A DNA stretch of 64,000 nt from Pengzhenrongella frigida. Its GTDB lineage: Bacteria; Actinomycetota; Actinomycetes; Actinomycetales; Cellulomonadaceae. The stretch is from NCBI RefSeq assembly GCF_004168625.1, contig NZ_SDWW01000023.1, positions 1-64,000 of the forward strand. The letters run 5' to 3'. Made by a program: the position numbers and the translations under genes. The notes under the pieces were generated by a model, which did not search any database, was not told the DNA's origin, and was given only the letters and a program-made list of their open reading frames with translations. Shown in pieces: positions 22,836-52,550 of the stretch. Position 1 is the stretch's first letter. Each line of letters opens with the position of its first letter.

Positions 22836-22909
22836 GCGGGTGTAGTTCAGTGGCAGAACTTCAGCTTCCCAAGCTGATAGCGCGGGTTCGATTCCCGTCA
22901 CCCGCTCCA
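22836..22909 (+). tRNA. tRNA-Gly (CCC), 3' CCA encoded; integration site
   Basis: A full cloverleaf is visible. The acceptor stem pairs GCGGGTG with CACCCGC. The D arm follows, then the anticodon stem TCAGC/GCTGA around the loop TTCCCAA (anticodon CCC), then the T arm CGGGT-TCGATTC-CCG. Discriminator T and CCA are encoded. A tyrosine integrase starts 109 bp downstream, so the 3' part of this tRNA is very probably the attachment core (attL side) of the element to the right. Confidence 0.95.
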
Positions 22910-22982
22910 GACTGAACGTGCAGGTCAGAGAGATTTCTGGCACGAATAGGCCATCTCCCGGTAGGCTCTGTGGCATCGCTTT

Positions 22983-23002
22983 GCTCCATTACGCTCCATT
23001 AG
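22983..23002. repeat. 10-bp tandem repeat before the integrase gene
   Basis: GCTCCATTAC is followed directly by GCTCCATTAG, 15 bp upstream of the integrase GTG. A period of one helical turn next to a presumed att site suggests arm-type integrase or Xis binding, but two copies only is weak support. Confidence 0.45.
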
Positions 23003-23017
23003 GCGCTGGGGGTAACT

Positions 23018-24370
23018 GTGCCGAACCGGAAGGGACGCCGCCTGTTCGGCTCCATCCGCCAGGAGGCGTCGGGCCGCTGGATGGTCCGCGTACCCATCCC
23101 CGACAGCGGCGGCAAGACCCGGTCGATCGGCACCTTTGCCACCAAGCGCGCCGCGGAGGACGCCCTGGCGATCGAGCACGGCTCGATCGCCACCGGAACC
23201 TGGGTGGACCCCAACCGAGGCAGCGAGCTCCTCGGTCAGTACGCGGCCACCTTCGTCGCCACGAACGGGTACCGCGAGCGCTCCCTTGCCCTCAACGAGC
23301 GCCTGCTCGCGGAGTGGATTGACACCACCCACTTCCTCACCGTCGGCGGCAGCCGCCACGCGATTGGTCTAGGCATGCGATCGCTGAGCTCGCTGACGAC
23401 CCAGGACATCCGACTGTGGCATGCGGCGGTGACGGCGGAGTCCCGCCGACGCGCCGTGCAGCGCCTCGAACGAACGGCGAAGCACCCGAAAGCCGTCAAC
23501 AAGGCGGTCCGCGCCTGGGCCCAAGGCGCAGGCATCGCCGTGGCCGCGACTGGACGCATCCCGACAACTGTCTTGAGCAAGTGGGAAGCCGCCGGAGGTC
23601 GCAAAGCCCTGGCCCCAGACATCCCGCCGACTGCCGGCGCCACGGAGGCCGCGCAGGCCTACCGTCTGCTGCACGCTGTGCTCGCACGTGCCCGACGCGA
23701 CGGACTGATCAAGGAGAACCCTGCAGCGATCGAGGGGGCAGGTTCGGTGGCGACGCTTGAGCGCAGACCCGCCAGCATCCCCGAGCTCCGGGTGGCTGCG
23801 GGCGCCATGACGGCCCGATACCGAGCCGCTGTCTGGGTCGCAGCAATGACCTCGATCCGCAGCGGTGAGCTGTTCGCGTTGCGTCGCTCCGACTGGGACC
23901 CCCAGAGGCACACGCTACGGATCGAGCGCTCCGTCGAGCTCGAGACGTCCGACGACGACTTCGGCCAGGTCAAGGCCTCGGCCTCGCTGCGTACCGTCGT
24001 CGTGCCCAAGATCGCGGCGACGGCTCTGGAGGAGCACCTGGAGCAGTTCACGGCGAAGGCGCCCAGGTCGCTGATCTTCACCACCTCGACCGGTGGCATC
24101 GTGTACCCGAGCCGAGTCGGCAAGCAATGGGCCCGGGCGCGTTCGGCCGCGGGCCGCGAGGATCTTCATTGGCACGACCTGCGCCACACCGGGCAGAGCC
24201 TCGCGGCCGCCGCTGGCGCCGGGATCAAGGACCTGCAGGCTCGCGCCGGTCACTCTACGACGACGGCGGCCATTCGCTATCTTCACCAGGTCCAGGACAG
24301 CGACCGCCGGGTCGCCACCGCGTTGGACGAGCTCGTTGCCCGCGAGGATCAGTCAGGTGAGGATTCGTAG
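23018..24370 (+). CDS. int: Tyrosine integrase with internal Lsr2-like domain
   Basis: This 450-aa recombinase probably integrates the element into tRNA-Gly. An N-terminal arm-binding type region (GSIRQEASGRWMVRVPIPDS) is followed by a core-binding helical part. The catalytic domain has R281 (SIRSGELFAL), H386-x2-R389 (HWHDLRH), H412 (RAGHSTTT) and nucleophile Y421 (AIRYLHQ). Unusually, residues about 158-193 (KAVNKAVRAWAQGAGIAVAA, then TGRIPTTVLSKWEAAG) resemble the DNA-binding C-terminus of the nucleoid protein Lsr2, with its W, GRIP and helix pattern. GTG start with GGGGG upstream. Its 3' end overlaps the convergent xis-like gene by 18 bp. Confidence 0.93.
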   Translation: MPNRKGRRLFGSIRQEASGRWMVRVPIPDSGGKTRSIGTFATKRAAEDALAIEHGSIATGTWVDPNRGSELLGQYAATFVATNGYRERSLALNERLLAEWIDTTHFLTVGGSRHAIGLGMRSLSSLTTQDIRLWHAAVTAESRRRAVQRLERTAKHPKAVNKAVRAWAQGAGIAVAATGRIPTTVLSKWEAAGGRKALAPDIPPTAGATEAAQAYRLLHAVLARARRDGLIKENPAAIEGAGSVATLERRPASIPELRVAAGAMTARYRAAVWVAAMTSIRSGELFALRRSDWDPQRHTLRIERSVELETSDDDFGQVKASASLRTVVVPKIAATALEEHLEQFTAKAPRSLIFTTSTGGIVYPSRVGKQWARARSAAGREDLHWHDLRHTGQSLAAAAGAGIKDLQARAGHSTTTAAIRYLHQVQDSDRRVATALDELVAREDQSGEDS

Positions 24371-24676
24371 CCACGTCTCCCGCCCGAAGGAGTCCGTACG
24401 GACTGGACGCTGGGCCGGCGTTGTGCACGCCTCGATCAACCGATCGGCCGTCGACCGACGCACGCGTAGGAGGCGGCCGATCGCGACGACCTCGATACGC
24501 CGTTCCTCGATCAGCGTGCGGGCCCGCCGCTCCGAGATGCCGAGGTACACGGCCAGCTGCACTCGGTCGAGCAGCGGGTCTGGGTTGGCGACTTCAACAT
24601 GGTCACGCGCAGCCTCGATCGTTGCGCGGTCGTGCTCCGGACGGCCTGCCATCACGTTTGAGTCGCGAGTGCCCAC
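24353..24676 (-). CDS. Excisionase-like MerR-fold DNA-binding protein
   Basis: This 107-aa protein holds a winged helix-turn-helix (LLDRVQLAVYLGISERRARTLI, then IGRLLRVRRSTADRLIEA). That is the usual form of actinobacterial Xis/AlpA-type directionality factors. It lies convergent to the integrase and overlaps its end, as expected for a gene controlling excision. The GTG at 24676 has GGGAGGG upstream. The leader contains GCCTTCGGAG and TTGATCT, both seen before other genes of the element. Confidence 0.75.
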   Translation of the reverse strand: MGTRDSNVMAGRPEHDRATIEAARDHVEVANPDPLLDRVQLAVYLGISERRARTLIEERRIEVVAIGRLLRVRRSTADRLIEACTTPAQRPVRTDSFGRETWLRILT

Positions 24677-34241: not shown

Positions 34242-34463
34242 CGCAACTCCCCTTCTCGTTTGACCTCACCTCCGAAGGCCGACCCGAGCCCTCACGCGCT
34301 CACCACGTAGCCCGCGCAATGCCGACGTCGTCCCCCTCCACGACGACGACCGACCACAGCACCGCTCCGACACGACCCGAAAACCCCAAAGCACTGCCCC
34401 ACACACCTCTTGCATTGCCGGAATTCGACGCCTCCTCCACCGATCGCCAGGGCCACTTCAGTT

Positions 34464-34477
34464 GCCTTCGGGAGGTG
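34464..34477 (+). promoter_or_regulatory. GCCTTCGG/GAGGTG leader motif before the relaxase
   Basis: GCCTTCGGGAGGTG contains the ribosome binding site of the relaxase gene. Related sequence precedes the 138-aa gene (34,265-34,281, minus), the 152-aa gene of the transfer operon (52,554-52,576, minus), the small gene near 61,030 (minus) and the xis-like gene (24,713-24,723, minus). It may be a shared regulatory leader of the element. Confidence 0.45.
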
Positions 34478-34482
34478 TGACG

Positions 34483-37400
34483 ATGTCGATCCACAAGCTG
34501 ACGGCCGGGAGCGGGTACGACTACCTGACTCGCCAGGTCGCGGTTCACGACGCGACCGAGAAGGGCCACACAAGCCTGGCGTCCTACTACGCGGCCAGGG
34601 GCGAGGCCCCGGGCACGTGGATCGGGTCTGGCCTCGTCGGAATCGACGGGCTGGACGAGGGCGACGAGGTCACCGCCGAGCAGCTGCGCAACCTGTTCGG
34701 TGCAGGAAAGCATCCGCTGGCCGAGCAGCTGCGCGCCGCCGCCGCCGAAACCGGGCTCAGCGAGCGCGAGCAGGAGACCGCCACCTGGTTGGGCACCCCG
34801 TTCCGGGTCTACGCGAACGACACCTCGGCCTTCCGCATCCGAGTGGCGAAGGAGATTGCCGCCCTCAACGCCAGCAACGGGCGGCGCTCCGCCGACCCGG
34901 TGCCGCTGGCCGACCGGGCTCGCATCCGAACCCAGGTTGCGGCCGAGCTGTTCCGCGAGGAGCACGGCCGCGAGCCCGCCGACGCCCGTGAGCTCGCGGC
35001 CACGATCGCCAAGCACTCCCGCCCGCGCACCAACGCCGTGGCCGGGTACGACCTGACGTTCTCCCCGGTCAAGAGCGTGAGCACGCTGTGGGCGATCGCC
35101 GACCGACCGATCGCGGCCGCGATCGAGCGGGCCCACCAGACTGCGGTCAAGGACGCTCTGGCGTTTCTCGAGAACACGGCGCTGTTCACCCGCGAGGGCA
35201 CCAACGGTGTCCGGCAGGTCGAGAGCCGCGGGCTGGTCGCGACCGCCTTCACTCACCGTGACAGCCGCGCCGGTGACCCCGACCTGCACACCCACGTCGC
35301 GGTCGCGAACAAGGTCCAGACCCGCGACATGGGTCGATGGCTGGCCATCGATGGGCGGCTGATCTTCGCTGCCACCGTCGCGGCATCCGAGACGTACAAC
35401 ACCGCGCTCGAGCGGCACCTCACCGACACCCTCGGCCTGCGGTTCGAGGTCCGCCCAGGCGACGACCCACGCAAGCGCCCGGTCCGCGAGATCGTCGGCG
35501 TCGACCCCGCGCTGGCTTCCCGATGGTCCACCCGACGAGCCAGCATCGAGGTCCGCCGCGCCGAGCTGGCCAGCACCTTCCAGGCCACCCACGGTCGCCC
35601 GCCCACACCCGTGGAGTCCGTGCAGCTGGCCCAGCAGGCAACCCTGGAGACCCGGCAAGGCAAGCCCGAACCGCGCAGCCTCGCCGAGCAGCGCGCCACC
35701 TGGGCGGCCCAGGCGCGGGGTGTCCTGGGCGGCGAGCGTGGGGTGCAGGCGATGCTGCGCCGGGTCCTGCGCCCGGCCGAGGCCCCGACCCGGCGGGTCG
35801 ACGCGGCGTGGGTGCGCGAGACCGCCGCCGTCATCCAGAACACGCTCCAGGCGAACCGCTCCTACTGGCAGCGGTGGCACGTCGAGGCCGAAGCCCAGCG
35901 CAGGGTCCGCGGCGTCGCCGTGCGCACGCGCGACGTCGAACGAGTCGTCGGGCTGCTGGTCGACGAAGTCCTGACCCGCAGGTCGGTGCCACTCACCCGC
36001 TCCGAGCGGGACATCGAGACCCCCACCGAGTTGCGCCGCAGCGACGGCTCGAGCGTGTACACGATCGCCGGATCTACCCTGTTCACCTCCCCCGACCTGC
36101 TCGCGGCCGAGGCGCGCATCGTCGCCCACGCCGGCCAGCACGACGGCACCCGCGCCACCGCCGCCGCCGTCGGGCAGGCGCTCACTCAGTCGGCTGCGGA
36201 CGGCCTGCCGCTCAACGCCGGGCAGGCGTCGCTGGTCACCGAGATGGCCACCTCCGGCGCTCGGGTTCAGCTCGCAATCGCGCCGGCCGGAGCGGGCAAG
36301 ACGACCGCCATGCGCGCCCTGGCCACCGCGTGGACGGCCGGCGGTGGAGACGTCGTCGGTCTGGCGCCGTCCGCCACTGCCGCGACGGTCCTGGGCGAAG
36401 CCATCGCCGCCCGCACCGACACCATGGCCAAGCTCCTGTGGCACCTGGACCACGACCCAGAGCACCTGCCCGGCTGGGCGCGGCGCATCGGCCCGGCGAG
36501 CCTGGTCGTCGTGGACGAGGCAGGCATGGCCGACACCCTCTCGCTGGACCGCCTGATCGAGTTCGTCACCGCGCGCGGCGGGTCGGTGCGCCTGGTCGGC
36601 GACGACCAGCAGCTGTCCGCCGTCGGCGCGGGAGGAGTGCTGCGCGATGTACGCGCCACCCACGGCGCACTGCACCTCACCGAGCTGATGCGCTTCGCCG
36701 ACCCGGCCGAAGGCGCCGCCTCCCTGGCCCTGCGCGACGGGCTGACCGAGTCGCTCGGTTTCTACCTCGACGCCCACCGAATCCACGTCGGAGACCTCAC
36801 CACCCTGACCGACGACGTCTTTGACGCCTGGCGCACCGACCGCGAGGCCGGCCGCGACGCGGTCATGCTCGCCCCGACCCGCGAGCTCGTCGGCGAACTG
36901 AACGATCGAGCCCGCGCCCACCGGCTCGCCGGCCAGACCCCGGAGCGCACCGTGTCCCTGGCCGACGGGTCGACCGCCTCGGCTGGCGACACCGTCATCA
37001 CCCGGGCCAACAACAGGCAGCTGCGCGTGACCGGCACCGACTGGGTCAAGAACGGCGACCGGTGGCACGTCACCGCCGTCCACTCCACCGGGGCACTGAC
37101 CGTCCGGCACACCACCAGCGGCTGCAGCGTCGACCTGCCGGCCGACTACGTGCGCACCGCAGTCGGCCTCGGCTACGCCACCACGATCCACACCGCTCAA
37201 GGCGTCACAGCGGATACCAGCCACACCCTGCTGACCGGGCAGGAGTCGCGGCAGCTCACCTACACCGCCGTCACCCGCGGCAAGGCCGCCAACCACCTCT
37301 ACCTGGAGGTCGTCGGCGACGGCGACGAGCACAATGTCATCCGCCCCGACTACGTCCAGCCGCTCACCGCGACCGACCTTCTCGAGCGGATTCTGGCCCG

Positions 37401-40026
37401 CGACGAGTCCGCCAAGTCGGCGCACACCACCCGCCGCGTCGCCGACGACCCCACCACCCTGCTGAGCCAGGCGGCTGCCCGGTACGTCGACTCGCTGTAC
37501 GTCGGCGCCGAGCAGTTGCTCGGACCCCAGCAGGTCGAACGCCTGGACCGTGCAGCGGACCTGGTCGTGCCCGAGCTGACCCGGGCCGCCGCCTGGCCGA
37601 CCCTGCGTGCACACCTGCTCCTGCTCGCAGCACAAGAGGGCGACCCCGTCGCGCACCTGCGCGCCGCCGCGGATGCGCGCGAGCTCGACACCGCCGACGA
37701 CGTCGCCGCCGTGCTCGACTGGCGACTGGACGACACCGGCCTGCGCAACGCCGGCACCGGCCCGCTGCCCTGGCTGCCCAGCATCCCCGCAGCGCTTGGC
37801 GAAGACCCCCAGTGGGGTCCGTACCTGGCAGCGCGCGCCGCGCAGGTACGCGACCTCGGCCAGCAGGTCACCGAGCAGGCGCAATCAGGCGACTCGATGC
37901 CGCAGTGGGCCCGCACCGGGCAGCACCGCCCCGACGACGACCTGCTCGTCCAGGTCTCCGTATGGCGCGCAGCCACCGGCGTGCCGGACAGCGACCGGCG
38001 CCCCACCGGTGCTCCGCATCTTGGCAAGGCCGCCGCCCGTTACCAGCAGACGCTCGACACCCGCCTCGCCACCCAGCACACCCCGGCCCTCGCCGAGTGG
38101 CAGCCCCTGCTCGACCGCGCGCTCACCGATGACCGACACGACGCCTTCATGCCTGTGCTCGCCGAGCGACTGTCGGCCCTGGCGCGCGCCGGCCTCAACG
38201 CACCGCAAATCGTGCGCAGCGCGCTGGCCGACGGCGGCCTTCCCGACGACCACGCCGCGGCGGCCCTGTGGTGGCGCATCACCGGGCGCCTGTCTCCCGC
38301 GGTCGCAGCACAGGCCGAGTCCGACCAGCACCTCACGACCGCGTGGACTCCCCGCCTCGCCGACCTCGTCGGCCCGGACACCGCCGACATGCTGCAGGCC
38401 AGCCCGTGGTGGCCAGCGCTGGTCACCAGCGTCGACCACGCCATCGCCCGCGGCAACACCCTCGAGTGCCTGTTCGCAGCTCCGATCGTCGACGACGACG
38501 TCGACCCGTGCCAGGCACTCGTCTGGCGGATCTCCGTCCTGACCGACCCCGTCGGAGAGAGCTCCGAGCGGTACCGACAAGGGTTCACACTTGGTGGCGA
38601 CGAGGTCGACCCGTTCGGGCAAGACGACCCGCAACACGGGCTCGTTGCCCTCACTGACAACGAGTGGCAGCACCTGTTGCCCGCGGTCGACCAGACCCAG
38701 GACGACCGGTTCGCGCCCGAGCCGGACGAGCCCGACACGACGGATCCCTTCGACGACCCCGCCTTCGTCGAGGCCTTCCTCACCCTCGCGGCGGCCGCGC
38801 GAGCCCACGCCACCACGCTGCCGCCCACCGACCGGATGGTCGACGCGCAGGCAGCGCGGGAGTTCGACGCCGCCATGGCCCCCGTCAGCCCGGCCCGCAT
38901 CCTCGAGCTCAACCGCCTGGCCACCGACTTCTACGTGCGCCAATTCCCCGACTCCTGGGCCCAGCGCTACCTGACCGAACGGCTCCGCACCGACCTCACA
39001 GGCGACCCGTACGTGCTCCCCGGATACGCCCCGGCCGGCTGGACCCGACTCGTCGACCACCTACACCGCCAGGGCGTCACCGACCTGGAGCTCACCGAGT
39101 CCGGCCTGGCCAGCGTCGCGCGAACCGGTCGCCTCATCGACCGCTTCCGCGACCGCCTCGTCTTCCCGATCACCCGCCTCGCCGCCGACGGCGAGCTCGA
39201 ACCACTCGGCTTCGTCGGCCGGCGCCACCCCGAGGCGACCGACCAAACGGGCGGGCCGAAGTACCTGAACACTCCGAATTCGGTGCTGTTCCACAAGGGC
39301 GCGCAGCTCTACACCGTCCGCGCCGACCGCCTCGAATCGGGCGCCGCGCCCGTTCTCGTCGAAGGGCCGGTTGACGCCGTCGCTGTCGCGCTCGCAGGTG
39401 GGAGTCGCTTCGTAGGCGTAGCGCCGCTCGGAACGTCCCTTACCAATGAGCAGGCCAGAGAGCTCGCAGCATTGGTGCACAGAAATGGCGCATCAACCCT
39501 CGTTGCTACCGACGCCGACCTAGCCGGCCGCCTCGCCGCTGAGCGCGACTACTGGCTGCTCGCCCAGCACGGTCTCGCCCCAGCCGCGACCCTCCTACCC
39601 GCCGGCTGGGACCCCGCGAGCCTGCTCGAGGGCTCAGGTGCAGCCAACCTTCGAGCAGCACTTCGAAGCACAACCGACCTCGCTGAAATCCTCATCACCG
39701 AAAACCTGGGCAGCGCCACTGGACTGGAGGCTGTCAGGGGATCGGCGCAAGTGCTCGCGTCCACCCCCCCATACGCTTGGGGCCCCGGCACATCTCGCAT
39801 AGCCCTCCACACCCGCATCCCCGAACATGTCGTGCGTAGAGAACTCGCGCGCGCGCTCCAGCAGTGGACTAAGAATCCTGGTGGCCATGCTGCGGAGCGT
39901 CTCGCCGAACCGAGCACTGAGCGAAGAAGAATGGGGCCATCCACTCATCCGGCACCGCTCCCCAAGACCCCACGGATCGTCGAAGCGTCGAGGCCGAGCG
40001 CCGATCCGACGAGCCCATCCCGATGA
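34483..40026 (+). CDS. MobF relaxase-helicase-primase fusion
   Basis: At about 1847 aa, this protein would nick the element at oriT, unwind it, and possibly prime the complementary strand. The N-terminal TrwC-type relaxase has tyrosines near residues 12-14 (GYDYL) and the metal triad H258, H269, H271 (DPDLHTHVAV). A RecD/TraI-like helicase follows with Walker A APAGAGKTT (K606), VVVDEAGMAD and a TIHTAQGVT motif. Residues about 1470-1760 match the DnaG catalytic core: FRDRLVFPI, PKYLNTPNSVLFHKG, toprim E1627 (LVEGPVDAV) and DxD 1677-1679 (TDADLAG). The ATG at 34483 follows GGAGGTGTGACG. Next come 248 bp before the leader ORF of the cargo operon. Confidence 0.92.
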   Translation: MSIHKLTAGSGYDYLTRQVAVHDATEKGHTSLASYYAARGEAPGTWIGSGLVGIDGLDEGDEVTAEQLRNLFGAGKHPLAEQLRAAAAETGLSEREQETATWLGTPFRVYANDTSAFRIRVAKEIAALNASNGRRSADPVPLADRARIRTQVAAELFREEHGREPADARELAATIAKHSRPRTNAVAGYDLTFSPVKSVSTLWAIADRPIAAAIERAHQTAVKDALAFLENTALFTREGTNGVRQVESRGLVATAFTHRDSRAGDPDLHTHVAVANKVQTRDMGRWLAIDGRLIFAATVAASETYNTALERHLTDTLGLRFEVRPGDDPRKRPVREIVGVDPALASRWSTRRASIEVRRAELASTFQATHGRPPTPVESVQLAQQATLETRQGKPEPRSLAEQRATWAAQARGVLGGERGVQAMLRRVLRPAEAPTRRVDAAWVRETAAVIQNTLQANRSYWQRWHVEAEAQRRVRGVAVRTRDVERVVGLLVDEVLTRRSVPLTRSERDIETPTELRRSDGSSVYTIAGSTLFTSPDLLAAEARIVAHAGQHDGTRATAAAVGQALTQSAADGLPLNAGQASLVTEMATSGARVQLAIAPAGAGKTTAMRALATAWTAGGGDVVGLAPSATAATVLGEAIAARTDTMAKLLWHLDHDPEHLPGWARRIGPASLVVVDEAGMADTLSLDRLIEFVTARGGSVRLVGDDQQLSAVGAGGVLRDVRATHGALHLTELMRFADPAEGAASLALRDGLTESLGFYLDAHRIHVGDLTTLTDDVFDAWRTDREAGRDAVMLAPTRELVGELNDRARAHRLAGQTPERTVSLADGSTASAGDTVITRANNRQLRVTGTDWVKNGDRWHVTAVHSTGALTVRHTTSGCSVDLPADYVRTAVGLGYATTIHTAQGVTADTSHTLLTGQESRQLTYTAVTRGKAANHLYLEVVGDGDEHNVIRPDYVQPLTATDLLERILARDESAKSAHTTRRVADDPTTLLSQAAARYVDSLYVGAEQLLGPQQVERLDRAADLVVPELTRAAAWPTLRAHLLLLAAQEGDPVAHLRAAADARELDTADDVAAVLDWRLDDTGLRNAGTGPLPWLPSIPAALGEDPQWGPYLAARAAQVRDLGQQVTEQAQSGDSMPQWARTGQHRPDDDLLVQVSVWRAATGVPDSDRRPTGAPHLGKAAARYQQTLDTRLATQHTPALAEWQPLLDRALTDDRHDAFMPVLAERLSALARAGLNAPQIVRSALADGGLPDDHAAAALWWRITGRLSPAVAAQAESDQHLTTAWTPRLADLVGPDTADMLQASPWWPALVTSVDHAIARGNTLECLFAAPIVDDDVDPCQALVWRISVLTDPVGESSERYRQGFTLGGDEVDPFGQDDPQHGLVALTDNEWQHLLPAVDQTQDDRFAPEPDEPDTTDPFDDPAFVEAFLTLAAAARAHATTLPPTDRMVDAQAAREFDAAMAPVSPARILELNRLATDFYVRQFPDSWAQRYLTERLRTDLTGDPYVLPGYAPAGWTRLVDHLHRQGVTDLELTESGLASVARTGRLIDRFRDRLVFPITRLAADGELEPLGFVGRRHPEATDQTGGPKYLNTPNSVLFHKGAQLYTVRADRLESGAAPVLVEGPVDAVAVALAGGSRFVGVAPLGTSLTNEQARELAALVHRNGASTLVATDADLAGRLAAERDYWLLAQHGLAPAATLLPAGWDPASLLEGSGAANLRAALRSTTDLAEILITENLGSATGLEAVRGSAQVLASTPPYAWGPGTSRIALHTRIPEHVVRRELARALQQWTKNPGGHAAERLAEPSTERRRMGPSTHPAPLPKTPRIVEASRPSADPTSPSR

Positions 40027-40333: not shown

Positions 40334-42370
40334 ATGCTCCGCGACCTCCAGAGCCTGAAGCCGCACTACGCCACCGGCCAGGACTCGCTTCTTGACGACT
40401 TCTACGTGCCCTGCCTCAAAAACGCAAGCCGTTACGACCGGGCAACTGGATACTTCAGTAGCGCGCTTTACGCGGTCACGAGCGCCGCTTACGCCCGATT
40501 TATCGCCGCCGGCGGAACGATCCGACTGATCACCTCGCCGCACCTCTCGTCGGAGGATGTTCAGGCCCTCGCAGAGGGCGCAGCCGCGAAGGAGGTAGGG
40601 GAAAGCGCCCTCCGAAATGAACTGGTCCTCCTGCTGGGTCGGCAAGAGACAGCGGCGCCGACGCGGCTGCTCGCGACTATGGTTGCAACCGGGGTCCTAG
40701 ACCTTCGGGTGGCCCTCCAGCCAGGCGCGGGTATCTTCCACGACAAGGTCGGAATCTTCCAGGACGAAGAAGACAGACGCGTGGCATTTATCGGATCGGC
40801 AAACGAGACCTTCAGCGGCTGGGGTGCAAATCATGAATCTATCGAAGTCTTTGCAAGCTGGGAAGGAACCACTGACCTAGCCCGGGTACGGCGGCTCGCC
40901 GCCTACTTCGAGCGGCTTTGGGCTGGCGGGGAAGGCGAGATTGAGGTGCTCAGCCTCAATAAGGAGATACTAGATCTACTACGCGAGAACGCGCACGACT
41001 CCGTAGAATCTGCTCTCGCCGCTACATCACTGCGCGCGACCACGGATTCTGGCAAGAAGAAGCTCATGGAATTTCAAGCGGACGTCCTCGATTCTTGGAA
41101 GTCCACCAACCATCATGGAATAGTCTCGTTTGCCACCGGTGCAGGCAAGACGATCACCGCTATCGAGGGTATCCGGCGCTGGTCCGCTGATGAGCAAGGT
41201 GGCGCAGCGGTCGTCATCGTCCCGAGCGCTGATCTCCACAAACAGTGGGCAAGAGAGATTAGGGCTGAACTACCGGAAGCGAATCTAATCCTTGCCGGCG
41301 CTGGACATTCCGAATGGCGCGGAGAGCTTCGATGGATCCTTTCAGACCATGCCAGGGATGGACAGCCACGGCTCGTTCTGGCCACCAACAAGACTTTTGT
41401 TTCACCCCAATTTCAGGAGTCTATTGACTCTCGTAGGCCAGAACTTCTGCTCGTTGCCGATGAACTGCACCGAACGGGCTCGCCAGCGGTGCTTCAGGCC
41501 CTACAGAACGCGCCGTTCAAGGCAACCCTTGGACTAAGCGCCACGTACGCGCGCCAATTCGATGAAGGCGGAACCCAAAGCCTCCTCGAATTCTATGGTC
41601 CAGTTCTTGAACCAGTAATTGGCCTCACAGAAGCGATTATGCTTGGCCGGCTCGTTCCCTACGATTACTTTCTCCACAGAACCTCACTGGACGACCAAGA
41701 GCAGGAGCAGTACGACAAACTCACGGTAGAAATCAAGAAGATCGCGGCGCGCGACCGCGACGCAGACTCGTCTAACTCGTTCCTCAAGATGCTGCTAATT
41801 AGGCGAGCGCGAATCCTGAAGCAGGCACACGCGAAGGTACCGGCCGCCCTTGACGTACTTCAGGCCGAGTTTCAAGAAGGCGATCGCTGGCTGGTCTATT
41901 GCGATGACACTACACAGCTCAAGGCGATGATCCAAGCCTGCCTCAGTTGCGGTCTGCCGGCGTTGGAATACCACTCACAGATGACCTCCAGCCGCGACGA
42001 TGTGATGGCCAGTTTCGAGCGCCGCGGAGGCATCATGGTAGCCATTCGATGTCTCGATGAAGGCATCGATATCCCTGCCTGCGACAAGGCTCTCGTCATC
42101 GCCAGCTCGACAGTCGAGCGCGAGTACGTCCAACGGCGCGGACGTGTTCTCCGCACAAGCCCCGACAAATATTCAGCTGCCGTTCACGACATGTTGCTGG
42201 TCGACAAGGCCGGTGGAGTCCTAACGCGAGGCGAAGCGCTCCGTGCGCTTGAATTCGCGAGGCTTGCTCGTAACGAGACTCCAACTTTTGAACTTCAACA
42301 CATGTTGGCCCTAAGTGCCGACTTCGGAGCAGAAATTTCAGCGATACTGGAAGGTTTTGAGGATGAGTAG
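40334..42370 (+). CDS. PLD-domain superfamily 2 helicase (cargo module A)
   Basis: This 678-aa protein has an N-terminal phospholipase-D-like half: KNASRYDRATGYFSSALY, then HDK at 136-138 followed by FIGSANETFSGWG. A DEAD/DEAH-type helicase half follows, with Walker A FATGAGKT (K272), LLVADELHR, LGLSATYAR, VAIRCLDEGID and YVQRRGRVLR. PLD-helicase fusions are frequent in restriction and anti-phage loci, where the PLD part can be a nuclease. It is the first gene of a four-gene operon whose junctions overlap or abut. Base composition is lower in G+C than the relaxase gene. Confidence 0.85.
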   Translation: MLRDLQSLKPHYATGQDSLLDDFYVPCLKNASRYDRATGYFSSALYAVTSAAYARFIAAGGTIRLITSPHLSSEDVQALAEGAAAKEVGESALRNELVLLLGRQETAAPTRLLATMVATGVLDLRVALQPGAGIFHDKVGIFQDEEDRRVAFIGSANETFSGWGANHESIEVFASWEGTTDLARVRRLAAYFERLWAGGEGEIEVLSLNKEILDLLRENAHDSVESALAATSLRATTDSGKKKLMEFQADVLDSWKSTNHHGIVSFATGAGKTITAIEGIRRWSADEQGGAAVVIVPSADLHKQWAREIRAELPEANLILAGAGHSEWRGELRWILSDHARDGQPRLVLATNKTFVSPQFQESIDSRRPELLLVADELHRTGSPAVLQALQNAPFKATLGLSATYARQFDEGGTQSLLEFYGPVLEPVIGLTEAIMLGRLVPYDYFLHRTSLDDQEQEQYDKLTVEIKKIAARDRDADSSNSFLKMLLIRRARILKQAHAKVPAALDVLQAEFQEGDRWLVYCDDTTQLKAMIQACLSCGLPALEYHSQMTSSRDDVMASFERRGGIMVAIRCLDEGIDIPACDKALVIASSTVEREYVQRRGRVLRTSPDKYSAAVHDMLLVDKAGGVLTRGEALRALEFARLARNETPTFELQHMLALSADFGAEISAILEGFEDE

Positions 42371-42617
42371 TGCGTATTCAAGAGATCAGCAAGATCCAAA
42401 GGAGCGCGCAAAGGCGGTACTCTTGACGGTAGTCCACCGTAGCGATTTCCGGCGCGACCACCCAACCATCTCCTCTGTCGTCACTGATGACATCGTCGAG
42501 GACGCTGTCGAAGCAGCGTATAAGACACAGTTCGACGAGAATAGGGCCCAATTCCGTCAGAAAATCGCTGCCCTCGGTGAGCTTGTGGCGCAGAATCTCC
42601 GACCGGAGAGTGAATAG
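42363..42617 (+). CDS. Small hypothetical protein (84 aa), module A
   Basis: This begins MSSAYSRDQQDPKERAKAVL and is helical and charged (TDDIVEDAVEAAYKTQFDENR). The ATG at 42363 overlaps the helicase stop by eight bases, and its stop directly abuts the ATG of the ATPase gene. A small linker protein between an effector and an ABC/SMC-type ATPase is the plan of several three-component defence systems; no sequence family was recognised. Confidence 0.75.
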   Translation: MSSAYSRDQQDPKERAKAVLLTVVHRSDFRRDHPTISSVVTDDIVEDAVEAAYKTQFDENRAQFRQKIAALGELVAQNLRPESE

Positions 42618-44600
42618 ATGAGTCTCGAGCTCATTAGCCTGACTCTAAGAAATTTCGGGCCATACTACGGAGAGAGCCATCTTGAATTCGCCGCGCCCGG
42701 CGAGCATCCGCTGACGTTGGTCTACGGCGAAAACACCCTCGGCAAGACTCAGATGTTCAACGCGTTGCGGTGGTCTCTATACGGAACATGGAATGGCGCA
42801 CGAGGAGCCCAGCCGACTGCGACTGAACTCGAGAACCGGTTCAACCGGCGAGCGCATCGCGAGGGCGAAGACGAGATGAGCGTGACGCTCCGGTTTTCAG
42901 CCAACGGAAAAAACTACGACTTGCATCGATCCGCCTCTGGTTTCGCAACCGGCGCTGCGAGACAGGCAGCTGACCTTCGCATCGACTCAGACGCGATTGC
43001 CGCGAACCGGATTCCAGCGGAGATCGGGAACCTCCTGCATCCTCAAATTGCTGACTTCTTCTTGTTCGATGGAGAACTCCTAGAGCGCTTTTTCGAACGC
43101 TTGCGGACGACCGATCAGCGCCGAGAAATCCGCAACTCGATCGATCGTGTCTTGGGAGTTCCCGCTCTACAGCGCGCTTACGACGACATCGCAGAAATGA
43201 CGACAACAGCAGGTTTGGCAGCAGCCAAATCAATGAAAGCAGGAAACGAGCGTACGCGGGTCCAGGCCGAGTACAAACGGTTGAGCAGCAACTCCATCAG
43301 CATCCAGAAGGACCTCACGGGTCTCCACGCGAGTCTCGGCAGGGTCAAGTTGGACCTCGCCACAAAGTCGGAGGAGCTCCGCTCCGTAGACGCTCTCAAG
43401 GAAGACGCGAAGCAACTTGAACACCTTGAGGCACGGCTCGCGGATCTCAAGAAAGATGATGAAGCGGGGAAGATCGCACTACAGGGTTTGCTTACGGATG
43501 GCTGGTTCTCTGTAGCCCTTAAGGGGGTTTCCGCAGCCCTCACGCGAACGAAGACCGAGCTTGAAGATGCGCAGGCACAGAGAGAAGTCCACGATGCCCT
43601 TCAGCTAAAGGTCCGAACCCTTGAGGCTCGAATCCATGGCGGGAGTTGTGAGGCTTGTGGACAAGTACTTCCGCCGCCCGACGCCACTGTCTACGCAGAC
43701 CTTGAAACGACGCGGTCAGAACTCGCGGCGCTCGGTAACGCCGTAGATATGCTGTCGATCATCGAACGTGAACGCCAACTGCAAAAGGTTTTCGATGACA
43801 GAACGGTGAAGTTATACCGAGAACGTGTAAACAGCCTTCATCGGGCTCGACTGGGGCGGACGGAAACCCAGCGCGAAATCGATGACATCAATGTTCGCCT
43901 TGCGGAGCACAGTGCTCCGGCGATCCGGAGCTTGGCGGCGGTGGTCGAGAGTTTGAAACAGCAACTAGAAGATCACGGGAACAAGATCGAGTTGCGAAGC
44001 CTTGATTTTCAGGGCGTTCAGGCGGATCTGGCGAAGCTAGCGACGAAACTTGGTCGGCTCCCCTCAGTCGACCCGAAACCAGCCGCGCTCAGCGCGTTCT
44101 ACGGCTATCTGGCTGATGCCTTCGACAACTCAATTCAGGAATATCGCAATAGTGTCCGAGAGGCTGTCCAGGCCGACGTCACAGATCAGTTCAAGCGACT
44201 AATCCGCGACCCGCAAGCGTACGGCGAGGTCAAGATTGGCGCGGACTTCGATATGCAGCTACTTGATCCACATGGACGTGAGCGCCAGACGAGCGAAGGT
44301 GGGCGGCAACTCTTGGCTCTGGCGTTCATTGGTGCACTAAAGCGCGTGGCGGTGCGCGGAGGACCGGTAATCCTCGACAGCCCTCTTGGTCGCCTCGACA
44401 AGGAACACAGAAGCAACGTCCTGAGAACTTGGATCCCGCAACTCGGGTCTCAGGCTTCACTCTTTGTTCAGTCCGGGGAGCTTACTGAGCAGGAGGCAGC
44501 AAGCATCGTTGGTGACATCGTTGGGGCCGAGTATCGACTCGTACGACCCGACCGGGATCCGGAGAACGTTGTGATCGAGCGCATAGGGAGGGCATCGTGA
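42618..44600 (+). CDS. DndD/Rad50-like SMC ATPase with CxxC hook (module A)
   Basis: This 660-aa protein has Walker A VYGENTLGKT (K43) and a DndD-like FFLFDGELLERFFERL segment. Two coiled-coil arms flank CEAC (C344/C347), which resembles the Rad50 zinc hook. The signature is TSEGGRQLLALAFIGAL and Walker B is PVILDSPLGRLD. DndD-like ATPases act in DNA phosphorothioation and several defence systems; here dndB, dndC and dndE are absent, so a sulfur-modification role is unlikely. It probably senses or holds DNA ends for the PLD-helicase. The start abuts the 84-aa gene. Confidence 0.85.
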   Translation: MSLELISLTLRNFGPYYGESHLEFAAPGEHPLTLVYGENTLGKTQMFNALRWSLYGTWNGARGAQPTATELENRFNRRAHREGEDEMSVTLRFSANGKNYDLHRSASGFATGAARQAADLRIDSDAIAANRIPAEIGNLLHPQIADFFLFDGELLERFFERLRTTDQRREIRNSIDRVLGVPALQRAYDDIAEMTTTAGLAAAKSMKAGNERTRVQAEYKRLSSNSISIQKDLTGLHASLGRVKLDLATKSEELRSVDALKEDAKQLEHLEARLADLKKDDEAGKIALQGLLTDGWFSVALKGVSAALTRTKTELEDAQAQREVHDALQLKVRTLEARIHGGSCEACGQVLPPPDATVYADLETTRSELAALGNAVDMLSIIERERQLQKVFDDRTVKLYRERVNSLHRARLGRTETQREIDDINVRLAEHSAPAIRSLAAVVESLKQQLEDHGNKIELRSLDFQGVQADLAKLATKLGRLPSVDPKPAALSAFYGYLADAFDNSIQEYRNSVREAVQADVTDQFKRLIRDPQAYGEVKIGADFDMQLLDPHGRERQTSEGGRQLLALAFIGALKRVAVRGGPVILDSPLGRLDKEHRSNVLRTWIPQLGSQASLFVQSGELTEQEAASIVGDIVGAEYRLVRPDRDPENVVIERIGRAS

Positions 44601-44956
44601 GCGATGACAAGGTGCAGATCGGTCTGGGGCAAGACGCCGACAACGCACTCAAGGCGCTTGTTGACCAAGGCATATTCCCGAACGAGGGCGTGGGCTACAA
44701 GTTCGGCGTCGCCTACGCCCTTTCGCTGGGCACGACCCCCGAAGAGGTGGAAATAATCGGCAATAAGACGAAGTTTGCCGTGGCTGGACTTGATCCAGAT
44801 GGGCGCCTATCCATTTTAATTACCACCTTTCTTCCGGACTCCGATCGTCCCTACTGGGCCGCTGAAAAGCTTGCCGACTGGGGACTCCGCGATCTCGCTC
44901 GCAGACTGGCCGCTCACGAGGATCTCGCCGAGATCATGGAGCAAGCCGTCCTCTGA
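44597..44956 (+). CDS. Small hypothetical protein (119 aa), module A
   Basis: This begins VSDDKVQIGLGQDADNALKA; GVGYKFGVAYALSLG and YWAAEKLADWGLRDLARRL are its most regular parts, suggesting an alpha/beta fold. The GTG at 44597 overlaps the ATPase stop by four bases (GTGA), so it is translated with it. No family identified; it could be a sensor or toxin component. A 210-bp gap then separates module A from module B. Confidence 0.75.
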   Translation: MSDDKVQIGLGQDADNALKALVDQGIFPNEGVGYKFGVAYALSLGTTPEEVEIIGNKTKFAVAGLDPDGRLSILITTFLPDSDRPYWAAEKLADWGLRDLARRLAAHEDLAEIMEQAVL

Positions 44957-45086
44957 AGCCAAGGACTCGACCTCCCAGCGCCGACGCGGTCGCCTATCGG
45001 TACCGTCCGAGCCATGTCGGCGCCGGGGGCTGTCGGTACCAGCGCGTAGCCTTGGACCAGCACGGCGGTCGGTAGCAATGGCGGGT

Positions 45087-45100
45087 CACACGCGAGTGTG
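45087..45100. promoter_or_regulatory. Small palindrome before module B
   Basis: CACAC-GCGA-GTGTG lies about 70 bp upstream of the first ParB-like gene of module B. It could be an operator for either ParB-like protein. TTGACG at 45,114 is a candidate -35, but no well-spaced -10 was found. Confidence 0.35.
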
Positions 45101-45166
45101 TCGGCGGATCACCTTGACGACGCGCTCTGGCAGAATCCGTGTTGACGACAAGAGGGGTTGGTACCA

Positions 45167-46021
45167 GTGGAGAGCTCCGAGAGAGTCGACCAGGGAGGCA
45201 CCTCCGTTGGCGGTTCTGGTACCTCGTCCGGGGTGACGACCGTCACTCACGTGCAGGTCGACCGAATCCGGCCTGAAGATGGCTTGGGCCGCAAGAGAGA
45301 CCGCGAAGGTCACCTTGAACTGCAACGATCCATTCGACAGTTTGGGGTTCTTACGCCGATCACCGTCCGCCCCGCTGGCGACGGCACTGACGACTATCTT
45401 CTTATCAAGGGCCAAGGGCGGACCCTCGCTTGTCGTATTCTCGGCATGCAAGAGATTCCGGCGATCGTCGTCGACGAGGCCTACGGCCAGGACGAAAAAG
45501 TACGCCAGTTCCTGGTTGAGAATGTAGCGCGGCTCCGAATGCGTCCAGTTGATCGGGCGCTTCTCATTCGGAGGGCACGCGAAGATGGTGAAGAGACAAC
45601 CGAAATCGCCCGTAGATTCGGGGTGACCGCGACAACTGTTCGCCGGCTACTTGCCCAGTTCGAAGGTGCCTCGACTACTGAGGTAGCCGCGCTGCGATCA
45701 GGCGAGATAAGCCTCTCGCTGCACGCTGTAATCGCTCGGCATGTTGACCCAGGGGAACGGGATGATGCCGTCAGAGTTGTTTCGGGGGCCGATATCCGAA
45801 CAAAGGAGCTCGACGCAATTTTCGTCGGGCTCGGGTGGAGTGAATTGACCACCCTAGGGCTAACTCAGCGGGCCCAACGAATGGCCTTGCTGAGTTGGGC
45901 GTGCTATTCGATCGCAAACCTCCCCGGCGGTACTGTCCGTGATCGAATTCGCGGGCTCGCCACGCATTTTCCTCTTGAGTTTGAACCTGACGGTGCGACA
46001 TTGGCATTGGTGTCCCGATGA
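45167..46021 (+). CDS. ParB-like protein 1 (module B)
   Basis: The protein is about 284 aa. The ParB/sulfiredoxin-like N-domain shows RIRPEDGLGRKRD, LQRSIRQFGVLTPITV, DYLLIKGQGRTLACRILG and VRQFLVENVARLRM. A helix-turn-helix follows (ETTEIARRFGVTATTVRRLL). The C-terminal domain is not recognised. The GTG at 45167 has AGAGGGG nine bases upstream. It is the first gene of an operon with a second ParB-like protein and a DNA methyltransferase, so it may direct or regulate modification; partition is less likely because no ParA is present. Confidence 0.8.
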   Translation: MESSERVDQGGTSVGGSGTSSGVTTVTHVQVDRIRPEDGLGRKRDREGHLELQRSIRQFGVLTPITVRPAGDGTDDYLLIKGQGRTLACRILGMQEIPAIVVDEAYGQDEKVRQFLVENVARLRMRPVDRALLIRRAREDGEETTEIARRFGVTATTVRRLLAQFEGASTTEVAALRSGEISLSLHAVIARHVDPGERDDAVRVVSGADIRTKELDAIFVGLGWSELTTLGLTQRAQRMALLSWACYSIANLPGGTVRDRIRGLATHFPLEFEPDGATLALVSR

Positions 46022-50017: not shown

Positions 50018-50632
50018 TCATCCTGCCGATGCTGAGACGTTTGCAGTCCCGCGAGGCTCGACGAAGGTGCCGATGTCGGCGCCGTAGGTCGTAGCTCGGT
50101 CTTGACGGGAGTCCTCGCTCTGATGGCGGGTATGCCGCCCCTGCGCGGGCCACGGCTGGTGGCCGCCGTCCTGGCAATGCTGACGAAGCCGCTGCCGCAT
50201 CCGGTCAACGAATGAGGGCAGCGCATATCGGTGCCACTCTTCAAGGGCGTCGGCGGTCAGGGCAAGGCCGGAGCGACGGCGTAGGTCCGCAATGACCGCG
50301 AGGTCGTGAACCAGGTGGGGGTGGCGTGGCCAGCAGGTCGGAATCATTGCGTCGGCGTCCCACGCGTACTCGTGGTTGAGCCAGGCAACAACCTGCTCGA
50401 GCCACTGCCAGAGCTCAGCGCGCAACTGCGGGTCGACGCAGGTGGCCGGGTCCCAGGGGCGGGCCAGCAGGCGGGGATCCCCCAAAGCGTTCCGCTGCTG
50501 GAGCGTCCCGCCACCTCCGGCAAGGTCGAGTTCGGCATAAGCGTGCTCCACCCGACGGCCCACCTGGGGGAAGGCACTAACCATGGCTTGAGGCGCTCGG
50601 CTCGGCGCAGTATTGGACGCCTCGTCACTCAC
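50018..50632 (-). CDS. Trp-rich hypothetical protein, transfer operon (204 aa)
   Basis: The middle part (RAELWQWLEQVVAWLNHEYA, IPTCWPRHPHLVHDLAVIAD, LTADALEEWHRYALPSFVDR) is a Trp/His-rich helical pattern seen in DUF4913-like proteins next to coupling proteins in actinobacterial elements. The start overlaps the coupling-protein stop by four bases. It is the last gene of the leftward transfer operon. Function unknown. Confidence 0.7.
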   Translation of the reverse strand: MSDEASNTAPSRAPQAMVSAFPQVGRRVEHAYAELDLAGGGGTLQQRNALGDPRLLARPWDPATCVDPQLRAELWQWLEQVVAWLNHEYAWDADAMIPTCWPRHPHLVHDLAVIADLRRRSGLALTADALEEWHRYALPSFVDRMRQRLRQHCQDGGHQPWPAQGRHTRHQSEDSRQDRATTYGADIGTFVEPRGTANVSASAG

Positions 50633-52095
50633 TGTCGAGTGTCCCCAGACCCATCAACGAGGCCGCTGCGTCGAGCCTGGGTGAGCGCCGCGAAGGCGCG
50701 GACCTCAGGAGTGATCTGGTCCCGGTGGCGGGCGGCTAGTTCCGCGCGCAGGGTGGCCTTGCCCGCAAGTAGTTTCCTGCCCACCTTGCCTTCGATACAC
50801 CGGTGCAACTGGGCGATGATCGGCGCACCGTTCTCCGCCAGCACCAGGGCCTGGCCCTCTTTGAGTTGACGGACCTCCGCCGGGGCGAGGATGGCGATGT
50901 CCTCCCCGGACGTCTGTCGGCCGCCCATGCGTCCGCCGTTCCAGCTCGTGCGCGCGACTCGTACCTGGCCGAGCAGGTCAGAAATCTCCTTGTTGAAGGA
51001 AACGTCCTTGGAGCCACCAAACACGATCAGGTTGTTGGTCAACCCGAGCAGGGTGCGGGCCTCCTGCTCACCGAAGACCGCAGCCAACTGAGGCCAGGCT
51101 TGGGCTGCCCAGATGAAGCTGATGCCGAGGGCGCGCTCGTTGGCCATGCGGGTCCGCAGGCTCGGTAGCGGTGCCGTTGAGGGCAACTCGTCTAGCACGG
51201 CGTGGAGCGGCGGGCACAGGCGCCCCCACGGGCTGGCGTTGGCCACCTCGAGAGCAGTGTCGAGAACATGCTCGGCAAAGGCCGTCATCAGCGGGGATGC
51301 GGAAGCGTAGGGATCCTCCCGCCCCAGTAGGTAGATCGTGCCGCGTGCAGCGATGACGTCTGCGATGGCCGTGGACGGGCGACCGGGGCCCGGCACGCAC
51401 CGGTGACGGATCTCATCTTGGAAGAACAAGGACATCGCTTGTTGGACGGTGGTGACGGTATTGCCGGCGGTGCGATCGTCGCCGTGCAGGGCGCCGTGCA
51501 GCAGGCCATCCCAGAAGGACGCGGCGTGGGGATGCTCCCGCAGGATCTCTGTCGCCTGAGTGGCTGCCATGGGCCGGGCTACCCAGCGCAACACGTCGTT
51601 GAGGCTGCCGCCGGTGAGCGCCGCGGCGTGGAAGAAGCCCTGGAGGACCTTCGCAGCCTCGGCGGCGTAGAAGCGGGCGGCGGCGTCGCCGTGGCCGCCC
51701 GCCACCGCGCCCTTGACCGTCCCGGCAGTGAACGCCTTGGCGCGTCGCTCGGCCACGAGCGGGTCGACGCAACCTCGAATCGGGTCCCAGACCACCTCCG
51801 GGAGGCCTGGCACGAGGCCGAACGGGTCAAGGACCACGCATGGGCGGCCGCCGGTGGACCGCGGACTGAAAGACAGCAACAGGTCGTCAACCTTCGTCAG
51901 GGTCACCATCGCGGCCCCGGGCGCGTCGAGGAGCGCGGGAACGAGCAGGTCCAGGGTCTTGCCCGAGCCCTGCGGGCCGATCACGCCAGCGGTGCGGTCC
52001 CACGGCACCCACAGCTCGCCGCCGCGAGGCTCTGTCGCCCGGCCGAGTTTCCAGCCGACGTCGGCCGGCCGCAGATGCCGCAGGCCGCGGGTCAT
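50629..52095 (-). CDS. VirD4/TraG-type conjugative coupling protein
   Basis: This 488-aa ATPase couples the relaxosome to the secretion channel. It has Walker A GPQGSGKTLDLL (K46), Walker B CPPLHAVLDELPSTAPLP, SFIWAAQAWPQL and RTLLGLTNNLIVFGGS. It lacks N-terminal membrane helices; the small membrane protein encoded just upstream probably supplies them. The ATG at 52095 overlaps that gene's stop (ATGA); the frame upstream is a shadow. Confidence 0.88.
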   Translation of the reverse strand: MTRGLRHLRPADVGWKLGRATEPRGGELWVPWDRTAGVIGPQGSGKTLDLLVPALLDAPGAAMVTLTKVDDLLLSFSPRSTGGRPCVVLDPFGLVPGLPEVVWDPIRGCVDPLVAERRAKAFTAGTVKGAVAGGHGDAAARFYAAEAAKVLQGFFHAAALTGGSLNDVLRWVARPMAATQATEILREHPHAASFWDGLLHGALHGDDRTAGNTVTTVQQAMSLFFQDEIRHRCVPGPGRPSTAIADVIAARGTIYLLGREDPYASASPLMTAFAEHVLDTALEVANASPWGRLCPPLHAVLDELPSTAPLPSLRTRMANERALGISFIWAAQAWPQLAAVFGEQEARTLLGLTNNLIVFGGSKDVSFNKEISDLLGQVRVARTSWNGGRMGGRQTSGEDIAILAPAEVRQLKEGQALVLAENGAPIIAQLHRCIEGKVGRKLLAGKATLRAELAARHRDQITPEVRAFAALTQARRSGLVDGSGDTRQ

Positions 52096-52550
52096 CGCCG
52101 ACCGCCCTGATGAGCGCCATAGAGGTCTGGGCGGATCACCTTGGCATGGTGGCGCAGCCGTGTTCGGCCGAGCAGCGCCTCGGCCTGCGCGGCGGTCGCC
52201 ATGCCTCGCAGGCGAGCGGGTCCCCAGCGGTCGAGCCCGAACTTCACCGCCCATCCGATCGCCACGAGGACGAGCAGTTCCACGATGCCGACGCACGTCC
52301 ACAACACCTCAACTGACGCCGGGCGGATTGCGGCGGGCAAGCCCGCCTCGGCATGCCCGCCGAGCAGCGGACCCAATGTGGTGAACAACGCTACGCGGTC
52401 GACGAACACCCATCCGTTGCCGGCGACAAGGTTCGCGAGCGACCGCCCGGTCTGCAGGCCCAGGATGACGGCCAGCAGCACTGCCAGCAGGGTCCCGACC
52501 GGGATCTCCCAGGTGAATGGGTAAGGCGTCGTGCGACGTGATCGTTGCAT
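52092..52550 (-). CDS. Membrane partner of the coupling protein (152 aa)
   Basis: Two to three membrane helices (WEIPVGTLLAVLLAVILGLQ, SVEVLWTCVGIVELLVLVAI) are followed by a soluble tail with ATAAQAEALLGRTRLRHHAK and RPDLYG, similar to the start of full-length VirD4-like proteins. VirD4 has therefore apparently been split into membrane and ATPase genes. GGAGGTGGCAC precedes the ATG; the leader contains GGCCTTCGGAAGGC. Confidence 0.75.
   Translation of the reverse strand: MQRSRRTTPYPFTWEIPVGTLLAVLLAVILGLQTGRSLANLVAGNGWVFVDRVALFTTLGPLLGGHAEAGLPAAIRPASVEVLWTCVGIVELLVLVAIGWAVKFGLDRWGPARLRGMATAAQAEALLGRTRLRHHAKVIRPDLYGAHQGGRR

Follow-up and report, generated by a model that had tools for sequence, protein, structure and literature searches.

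An Lsr2-type DNA-binding domain with altered DNA-reading residues set inside the core-binding domain of an actinobacterial tyrosine integrase

In Pengzhenrongella frigida, a tyrosine integrase gene starts 108 bases 3' of a tRNA-Gly(CCC) gene, on the same strand, within the 64,000-nucleotide stretch of DNA that we analysed (the window; Table 1). An initial annotation of this DNA placed a domain of the Lsr2 type inside the recombinase and proposed that it could target the enzyme to AT-rich xenogeneic DNA or compete with Lsr2. This raises the question of whether the segment is a genuine Lsr2 domain, how widely integrases share it, and what it does in the middle of such an enzyme.

The integrase reading frame is complete. 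Its catalytic domain is matched by PF00589 at residues 264-424 (Pfam scan, E 1e-14) and the protein by phrog_1 among the PHROG profiles (E 6e-43); an NCBIfam search returned solely models far under cut-off. R281, K319, H386, R389, H412 and Y421, which we take from knowledge of the family to be the catalytic residues, are all in place; in 49 aligned sequences the first four are invariant, and H412 and Y421 are conserved in at least 90%. The AlphaFold2 model, for which 49 aligned sequences served as input, has a mean pLDDT of 93, with values of 95-98 in the insert. Its predicted layout is the three-part one of arm-binding tyrosine recombinases such as the Tn916/Tn1549 integrases and lambda Int. 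For the arm-binding-like domain, Pfam gives AP2 (E 0.007) and Arm-DNA-bind_4 (E 0.2), both under cut-off. In the core-binding domain, helix A (residues 72-82), helix B (87-101) and a hairpin precede a long helix C (128-154), which runs on towards two Lsr2 helices (157-170 and 183-191); helix D comes next. The whole model comes closest in structure to the Tn1549 integrase (6emz, Z 20.8); among structures that span the arm domain as well, lambda Int (1z1b) is nearest, with a Z of 18.0. Unlike the integrase described here, the Tn1549 protein has no room for the insert, as judged by alignment length (293 of 316 residues align over model residues 69-440).

The RAWAQGAGIAVAATGRIPTT motif occupies residues 165-184 of the integrase. 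Residues 159-192 align to positions 4-37 of the 37-position Pfam model of the Lsr2 DNA-binding domain (PF23359, Lsr2_DNA-bd), with an E-value of 1e-8 and 34.8 bits (cut-off 26.9), and the model matches the segment alone with E 2e-10. The integrase is also matched by the Lsr2-like PHROG 1223 (E 1e-9), and 31 of 34 aligned insert-bearing members are matched by PF23359 at E<=0.1; PF14659, the SAM-like core-binding model, matches 14 of the 34. A profile built from 32 segments retrieved three Mycobacterium tuberculosis Lsr2 chains in a PDB search (E 6e-10 to 2.5e-9), with 2kng as the best; five weak rows of that search (E 0.03-0.95) were read as chance. When modelled alone, the segment has a pLDDT of 74 and is less sure than in the whole-protein model. 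Its top Foldseek match is again 2kng (rmsd 0.5 over 32 residues, 41% identity, probability 0.98, E only 0.31), which is also the first of four rows in VIA-align, with a Z of 4.8 that the tool grades as middling. The sequence evidence for an Lsr2 identity is thus firmer than the fold evidence. We confirm that residues 158-193 are a genuine Lsr2 DNA-binding domain inside a tyrosine recombinase, as the initial annotation held: PF23359 scores over its cut-off, the Lsr2 chain 2kng is recovered by the segment profile and agrees with the predicted fold, and the catalytic domain is matched by PF00589. Instead of an ordinary SAM-like domain devoid of Lsr2 similarity, both domains are present, one within the other. 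The dimerisation domain of Lsr2 (PF11774) was absent from the integrase in a Pfam scan at E<=10 and in a search of the organism's own genome at this place; because it was not found, co-oligomerisation of the integrase with host Lsr2 is unlikely.

Table 1. Positions of the integrase gene, its domains and associated features in the window.
Feature	Coordinates	Strand	Basis
tRNA-Gly (anticodon CCC), integration target	22836..22909	+	ARAGORN
attL core, block identical to the tRNA-less copy at C11:23110, from the anticodon arm to past the tRNA 3' end	22861..22916	+	flanks by eye
GCAGGTCAGAG	22920..22930	+	by eye
Direct repeat in tandem, GCTCCATTAC GCTCCATTA, with a 10-bp period; possible arm-type sites	22983..23001	+	repeat search
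Tyrosine integrase gene (int), GTG start, 450 aa, stop within coordinates	23018..24370	+	ORF, Pfam, PHROG
N-terminal arm-binding-like domain, residues 12-58, predicted three strands and one helix	23051..23191	+	AlphaFold2
Core-binding domain, part one, residues 72-141 (helices A and B, hairpin, start of helix C)	23231..23440	+	AlphaFold2
Insert between helices C and D of the core-binding domain, residues 142-206 (approximate ends)	23441..23635	+	alignment of 103 integrases, 43 with and 60 without the insert
Lsr2 DNA-binding domain, residues 158-193	23489..23596	+	Pfam, PDB profile search, Foldseek, VIA-align
T178-G179-R180, in place of the Lsr2 AT-hook R97-G98-R99	23549..23557	+	alignment; Lsr2 numbering as in PMC6906086
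Core-binding helix D, residues 208-227	23639..23698	+	AlphaFold2
Catalytic domain, approximately residues 250-445	23765..24352	+	Pfam, alignment
HTH_17 protein, candidate excisionase, overlapping the int 3' end on the opposite strand	24353..24676	-	PF12728, E 7e-5, 23.5 bits (under the cut-off of 27)
TrwC-type relaxase/helicase with primase-like part	34462..40026	+	Pfam
Type IV coupling protein (TraG/TraD)	50629..52302	-	Pfam

A TrwC relaxase gene lies downstream of int, along with genes for a coupling protein and a transglycosylase, which makes the element conjugative in type, and its gene content points to an integrative and conjugative element, with integrase, relaxase and coupling protein, seated in the tRNA-Gly gene. 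Within it, a lower-GC island (40334-48239) encodes PbeA (E 6e-191), PbeC (E 4e-149), a ParB-like protein and a DNA methyltransferase, and is a candidate defence system; Pbe is linked to phosphorothioation. No attachment repeat was found within the window. The attL site lies there, and exact copies of the tRNA 3' end, at neither of which a tRNA gene is predicted, sit on a separate contig that is not joined to it (C11:23110 and C11:27431). The identity block begins in the anticodon arm, so the crossover is probably located in that arm. The two exact tRNA-Gly 3' ends on contig C11 (L184, C11:18000-32000) lie 4.3 kb apart and look like attachment sites in tandem, such as accumulating elements might leave. 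This genome has a second integrase with the insert, at a tRNA-Gly(TCC) gene on contig C30, whose tRNA-end copy is on C93. The host genome also has two full Lsr2 genes, on contigs C89 and C37 (L001 and L002), both with RGR; by eye, the one on C89 adjoins a transglycosylase-like gene resembling those of conjugative elements.

In order to determine how many integrases share the insert, we searched 101 genomes of the family with protein P0001 and matched 53. An insert-bearing integrase was present in 16 of the 30 loci returned, from 16 genomes including the organism's own, and some copies were broken. A further scan, in which a single genome stood for each species, gave 198 loci, of which the best 80 were taken, and IMG/VR added 47. 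In all, 164 open reading frames matched the integrase profile; after removal of those under 180 bits, those shorter than 330 residues and duplicates, and addition of the second integrase of the organism's own genome, 103 were aligned, 43 with the insert and 60 without. The length of the loop between helices C and D is bimodal, with 61-80 residues in insert-bearing and 2-20 in insert-free proteins. The one longer loop (129 residues) belongs to the Propionimicrobium lymphophilum integrase (L067:3980-5464), at a tRNA-Glu gene, which has two tandem Lsr2 domains in this same loop. Named carriers come from seven actinobacterial families: Cellulomonadaceae, Promicromonosporaceae, Microbacteriaceae, Nocardioidaceae, Gordoniaceae, Actinomycetaceae and Propionibacteriaceae. 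One integrase reading frame is shared by a Cellulomonas fimi SB record and G005, a genome assigned to the same genus as the organism studied here (L015 and L047). When the insert profile was searched across the order (297 genomes), its best matches (E <1e-13) were integrases in at least ten genomes, and in a class-wide search (345 genomes) six genomes had matches at E<=1e-12, every one an integrase; the organism's own genome was among the matches in both. The insert-free integrase of Nonomuraea gerenzanensis (L187) has, by eye, apparently a second arm-like domain in its catalytic half, and at L220:6662-7543 the 3' part of an integrase is partly duplicated about 2 kb downstream of an intact copy.

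Of 48 loci in viral contigs, L118 alone showed the insert motif or fell into the insert-bearing class, weak matches being left unclassed. We compared the P0001, L118 and L055 proteins with 50,697 phage records by tblastn and matched 456, 566 and 1431 records, respectively. None of these phage records covered 80% of the P0001 query; at least 80% of the query was covered in 219 records for L118 and 228 for L055, and among the rows listed (12 for each query) the single-piece matches extend over some 360-372 codons, compared with 430-442 residues in the query, and so are without the insert. A plasmid search returned 25 records, none covering 80%, and the insert was absent from the two best that were read. 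In a viral structure library, ordinary integrases were among the 50 matches listed.

A phylogeny reconstructed without the insert columns places 41 insert-bearing rows, together with the long insert-free branch L036, on one side of a branch with SH-aLRT support of 98; two further insert-bearing rows were too short for the tree. Two hits of the class-wide search (L223 and L224), like their relatives L228-L233, are distant integrases whose N-terminus is different, and they carry a TGR-type Lsr2 segment in the same loop; in the four members printed, 63 residues separate the same anchors. PF23359 scores 20.7 and 22.3 bits on two of these members, under cut-off, and the integrase-segment profile reaches E 3e-15 and 1e-13. 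In a 63-row tree (55 rows hand-picked from 101, plus 8; quick search without bootstrap, for which the tool warns that long branches meet), five of them join the insert-free L235 and L247 with support of 100, and well supported branches require at least two changes of the insert trait. These proteins are therefore probably a second, separate lineage bearing the insert at the same loop, in a placement that rests on long branches. The shared TGR would favour a domain passed on by recombination over double recruitment, and the recurrence of a TGR-type domain in the same loop of the second lineage suggests that the C-D loop is a useful socket.

In Lsr2, R97-G98-R99 lies in the minor groove and R77, S80, R84 and S95 lie on the backbone, according to PMC6906086, and a Q/RGR motif is described as the means by which Lsr2 and H-NS select AT-rich DNA (PMC6212790, PMC4466236, PMC6936261, PMC3374832). 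The integrase domain is like the Lsr2 C-domain (2kng, 6qkp) in profile and fold and keeps the equivalents of R84, W86 and G98 invariant. It is unlike it in lacking a dimerisation domain, in being set inside an enzyme, and in its hook, where TGR stands in place of the RGR of the Lsr2 family. Across the 43 integrases (for the two-domain L067, the first domain alone was used), T occupies the first hook position in 32 and S does so in 11, the glycine G179 is kept in all, and the third residue, R180 here, is R in 37, Q in 2, K in 2, H in 1 and A in 1, one of the six exceptions being a broken gene. R165, the equivalent of Lsr2 R84, is invariant (43/43), as are W167, G179 and W189; the last aromatic residue of the domain is W in all 43, in contrast to Y in M. 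tuberculosis Lsr2, and the equivalent of Lsr2 S95 is A in this integrase. Among non-integrase Lsr2 domains in the fetched loci, RGR is found in 31 of 34, a sample partly picked by likeness to the integrase profile and thus leaning against the contrast; L190 and L196, which match that profile, were excluded from it. The exceptions are L205 (TGR) and a protein of L197/L219 that has two such domains (TGR, VGR). In L219 this protein is a 393-residue frame (L219:4765-5943, minus strand) that adjoins an insert-bearing integrase, and its cysteine-rich tail looks HNH-like by eye; no Pfam match was found for the tail.

The DNA at the integration sites bears on the proposal that the domain directs the enzyme to xenogeneic DNA rich in AT, in the manner of Lsr2. 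Insert-bearing integrases chiefly target tRNA-Gly genes in GC-rich genomes: int lies by tRNA-Gly in 36 of 44 insert-bearing loci (35 of 43 scanned, plus the window), by tRNA-Ala in 4, by tRNA-Glu in 1 and by none in 3 (L038 and L073 are broken genes, and L027 was left out of the scan). Only 2 of 60 other loci have int by tRNA-Gly (57 insert-free; L072, L103 and L117 too short to class). In the 150 bp upstream of int, AT content exceeds the locus mean by 0.033 in insert-bearing loci (n=42) and by 0.070 in insert-free loci (n=56; p 0.001), and the longest A/T run averages 4.05 and 4.36, respectively (p 0.43). The proposal has in its favour that the domain family binds AT-rich DNA in Lsr2, as described in PMC6212790 and PMC4466236. 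Against it, RGR has become (T/S)G(R/Q/K/H/A), so that all 43 integrases lack the first hook arginine and 6 of them lack the second, the DNA upstream of int is less AT-enriched than in insert-free relatives, and the sites are mostly tRNA-Gly genes. We consider targeting of this kind highly improbable.

In many insert-bearing relatives (uncounted), GCAGGTCAGAG or something close to it can be seen by eye after the tRNA 3' end. Direct repeats of 8/9 or better occur upstream of int in 32 of 42 insert-bearing loci, compared with 20% of shuffles; their period is mostly 10 bp with the insert (27/42) and 11 bp without it (32/55), which is one evolutionary contrast for which we claim no cause. As the 41 insert-bearing rows of the first tree form one clade with a single insert-free row, the ties of the insert to tRNA-Gly and to repeat spacing are each single contrasts. 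Specificity for tRNA-Gly as the reason for the insert fails as a rule: seven second-lineage loci adjoin tRNA-Lys (3), tRNA-Met (1) or no tRNA gene (3), and L225 adjoins tRNA-Thr.

The module may also compete with Lsr2, as the initial annotation proposed. In counter-silencing, a separate reading, the module would displace host Lsr2 from the element ends or the int promoter, as Ler, a free-standing regulator that is a different protein with a different fold, does with H-NS. The two full Lsr2 genes of the organism's own genome speak for counter-silencing; the absence of the dimerisation domain from the integrase, the absence of a long A/T tract from the 37 int-upstream segments printed and the usual scarcity of integrase all argue against it, and we regard it as quite unlikely. 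The parallel itself is that Ler, in which VGR replaces QGR, is described as able to relieve H-NS silencing (PMC4466236).

Selection on the insert was assessed in 11 pairs. Its dN/dS was 0.13-0.57, below 1 in all 11; the insert is under purifying selection. In 10 of these pairs the insert had a higher value than the remainder of the protein, and mean top-residue frequency is 0.585 in the Lsr2 core, 0.592 in the arm domain, 0.587 in the first core-binding part, 0.671 in helix D and 0.624 in the catalytic domain. The higher dN/dS and the variable hook residue are what would be expected of a passenger, an acquired domain with little function that is tolerated in the loop. This is improbable given purifying selection in every pair, core residues that are invariant in 43 integrases from seven named families, and probably at least two lineages. 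The main rival, to which we accord a minor but real chance, is protein-protein contact: the module would keep the Lsr2 fold, having lost DNA binding, and would hold protomers, excisionase or a host factor. It would account for the invariance of R165, W167, G179 and W189 while the hook residue R180 varies, and a match to 1w4g (E 0.23, not significant) hints at kinship with a peripheral subunit-binding domain; weighing against it, the Lsr2 equivalent of the invariant R165 touches the DNA backbone, and R180 is kept in 37 of 43.

Because the Arg84 equivalent is invariant and the Arg99 equivalent is retained to this extent, we favour, with a probability of roughly 50%, a repurposed domain that acts as an accessory single-arginine DNA clamp beside the core site and not as a homing device for foreign DNA. 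The Lsr2 module would add a low-specificity DNA contact at or beside the core site, with R180 entering the minor groove and R165 gripping the backbone, and this contact may stabilise or shape the integrase-DNA complex at a GC-rich target. With the first AT-hook arginine lost, the module would, to judge from its sequence, no longer select AT-rich DNA as Lsr2 does. The clean presence or absence at one loop, the purifying selection, the precedent of Ler for a hook with one arginine and the second lineage with TGR in the same loop count in favour of such a clamp. Several points count against it: six of the 43 integrases have Q, K, H or A in place of R180, so that not all of them need a minor-groove contact; A stands where Lsr2 has S95; the insert has the higher dN/dS and is less conserved than helix D and the catalytic part; and insert-free relatives presumably recombine without the module.

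Related arrangements have been reported. The nearest fusion found is Ku-Lsr2 of the mycobacteriophages Omega and Corndog, as described in PMC8612146, in which a DNA-end enzyme of a mobile element is likewise joined to an Lsr2 DNA-binding domain; there, unlike the internal, (T/S)GR-bearing insertion of the integrases, the domain is C-terminal and keeps RGR. Ler, of the H-NS family, offers a similar case of a silencer-type hook with its first residue altered and its arginine kept, and the arginine alone of its VGR is described as inserted (PMC4466236). According to PMC8138268, tyrosine recombinases of mobile elements gained an N-terminal DNA-binding part; the same paper lists other subgroup insertions, and "Lsr2" occurs nowhere in its main text. 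No fusion of Lsr2 and integrase was found in a literature search of mostly open-access sources, and the architecture pages of Pfam/InterPro may already list the combination.

This integrase has a nucleoid-protein domain built into the middle of its DNA clamp, with diagnostically changed DNA-reading residues, an arrangement that probably occurs in at least two lineages; a match to an Lsr2 domain need not signify a silencer. A bolder reading, which we hold as a long shot, is that actinobacterial integrases have repeatedly plugged a modified silencer domain into one core-binding socket, as a Ler-like one-arginine reader that would assemble on and locally displace Lsr2-covered DNA and so tie integration and excision to the silencing state of the host. 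Residues 142-206 form a defined, deletable module with predicted contact residues, which makes it testable how integrases of GC-rich actinobacteria gain affinity for their tRNA targets, and whether mobile elements turn pieces of the host silencer against the silencer itself.
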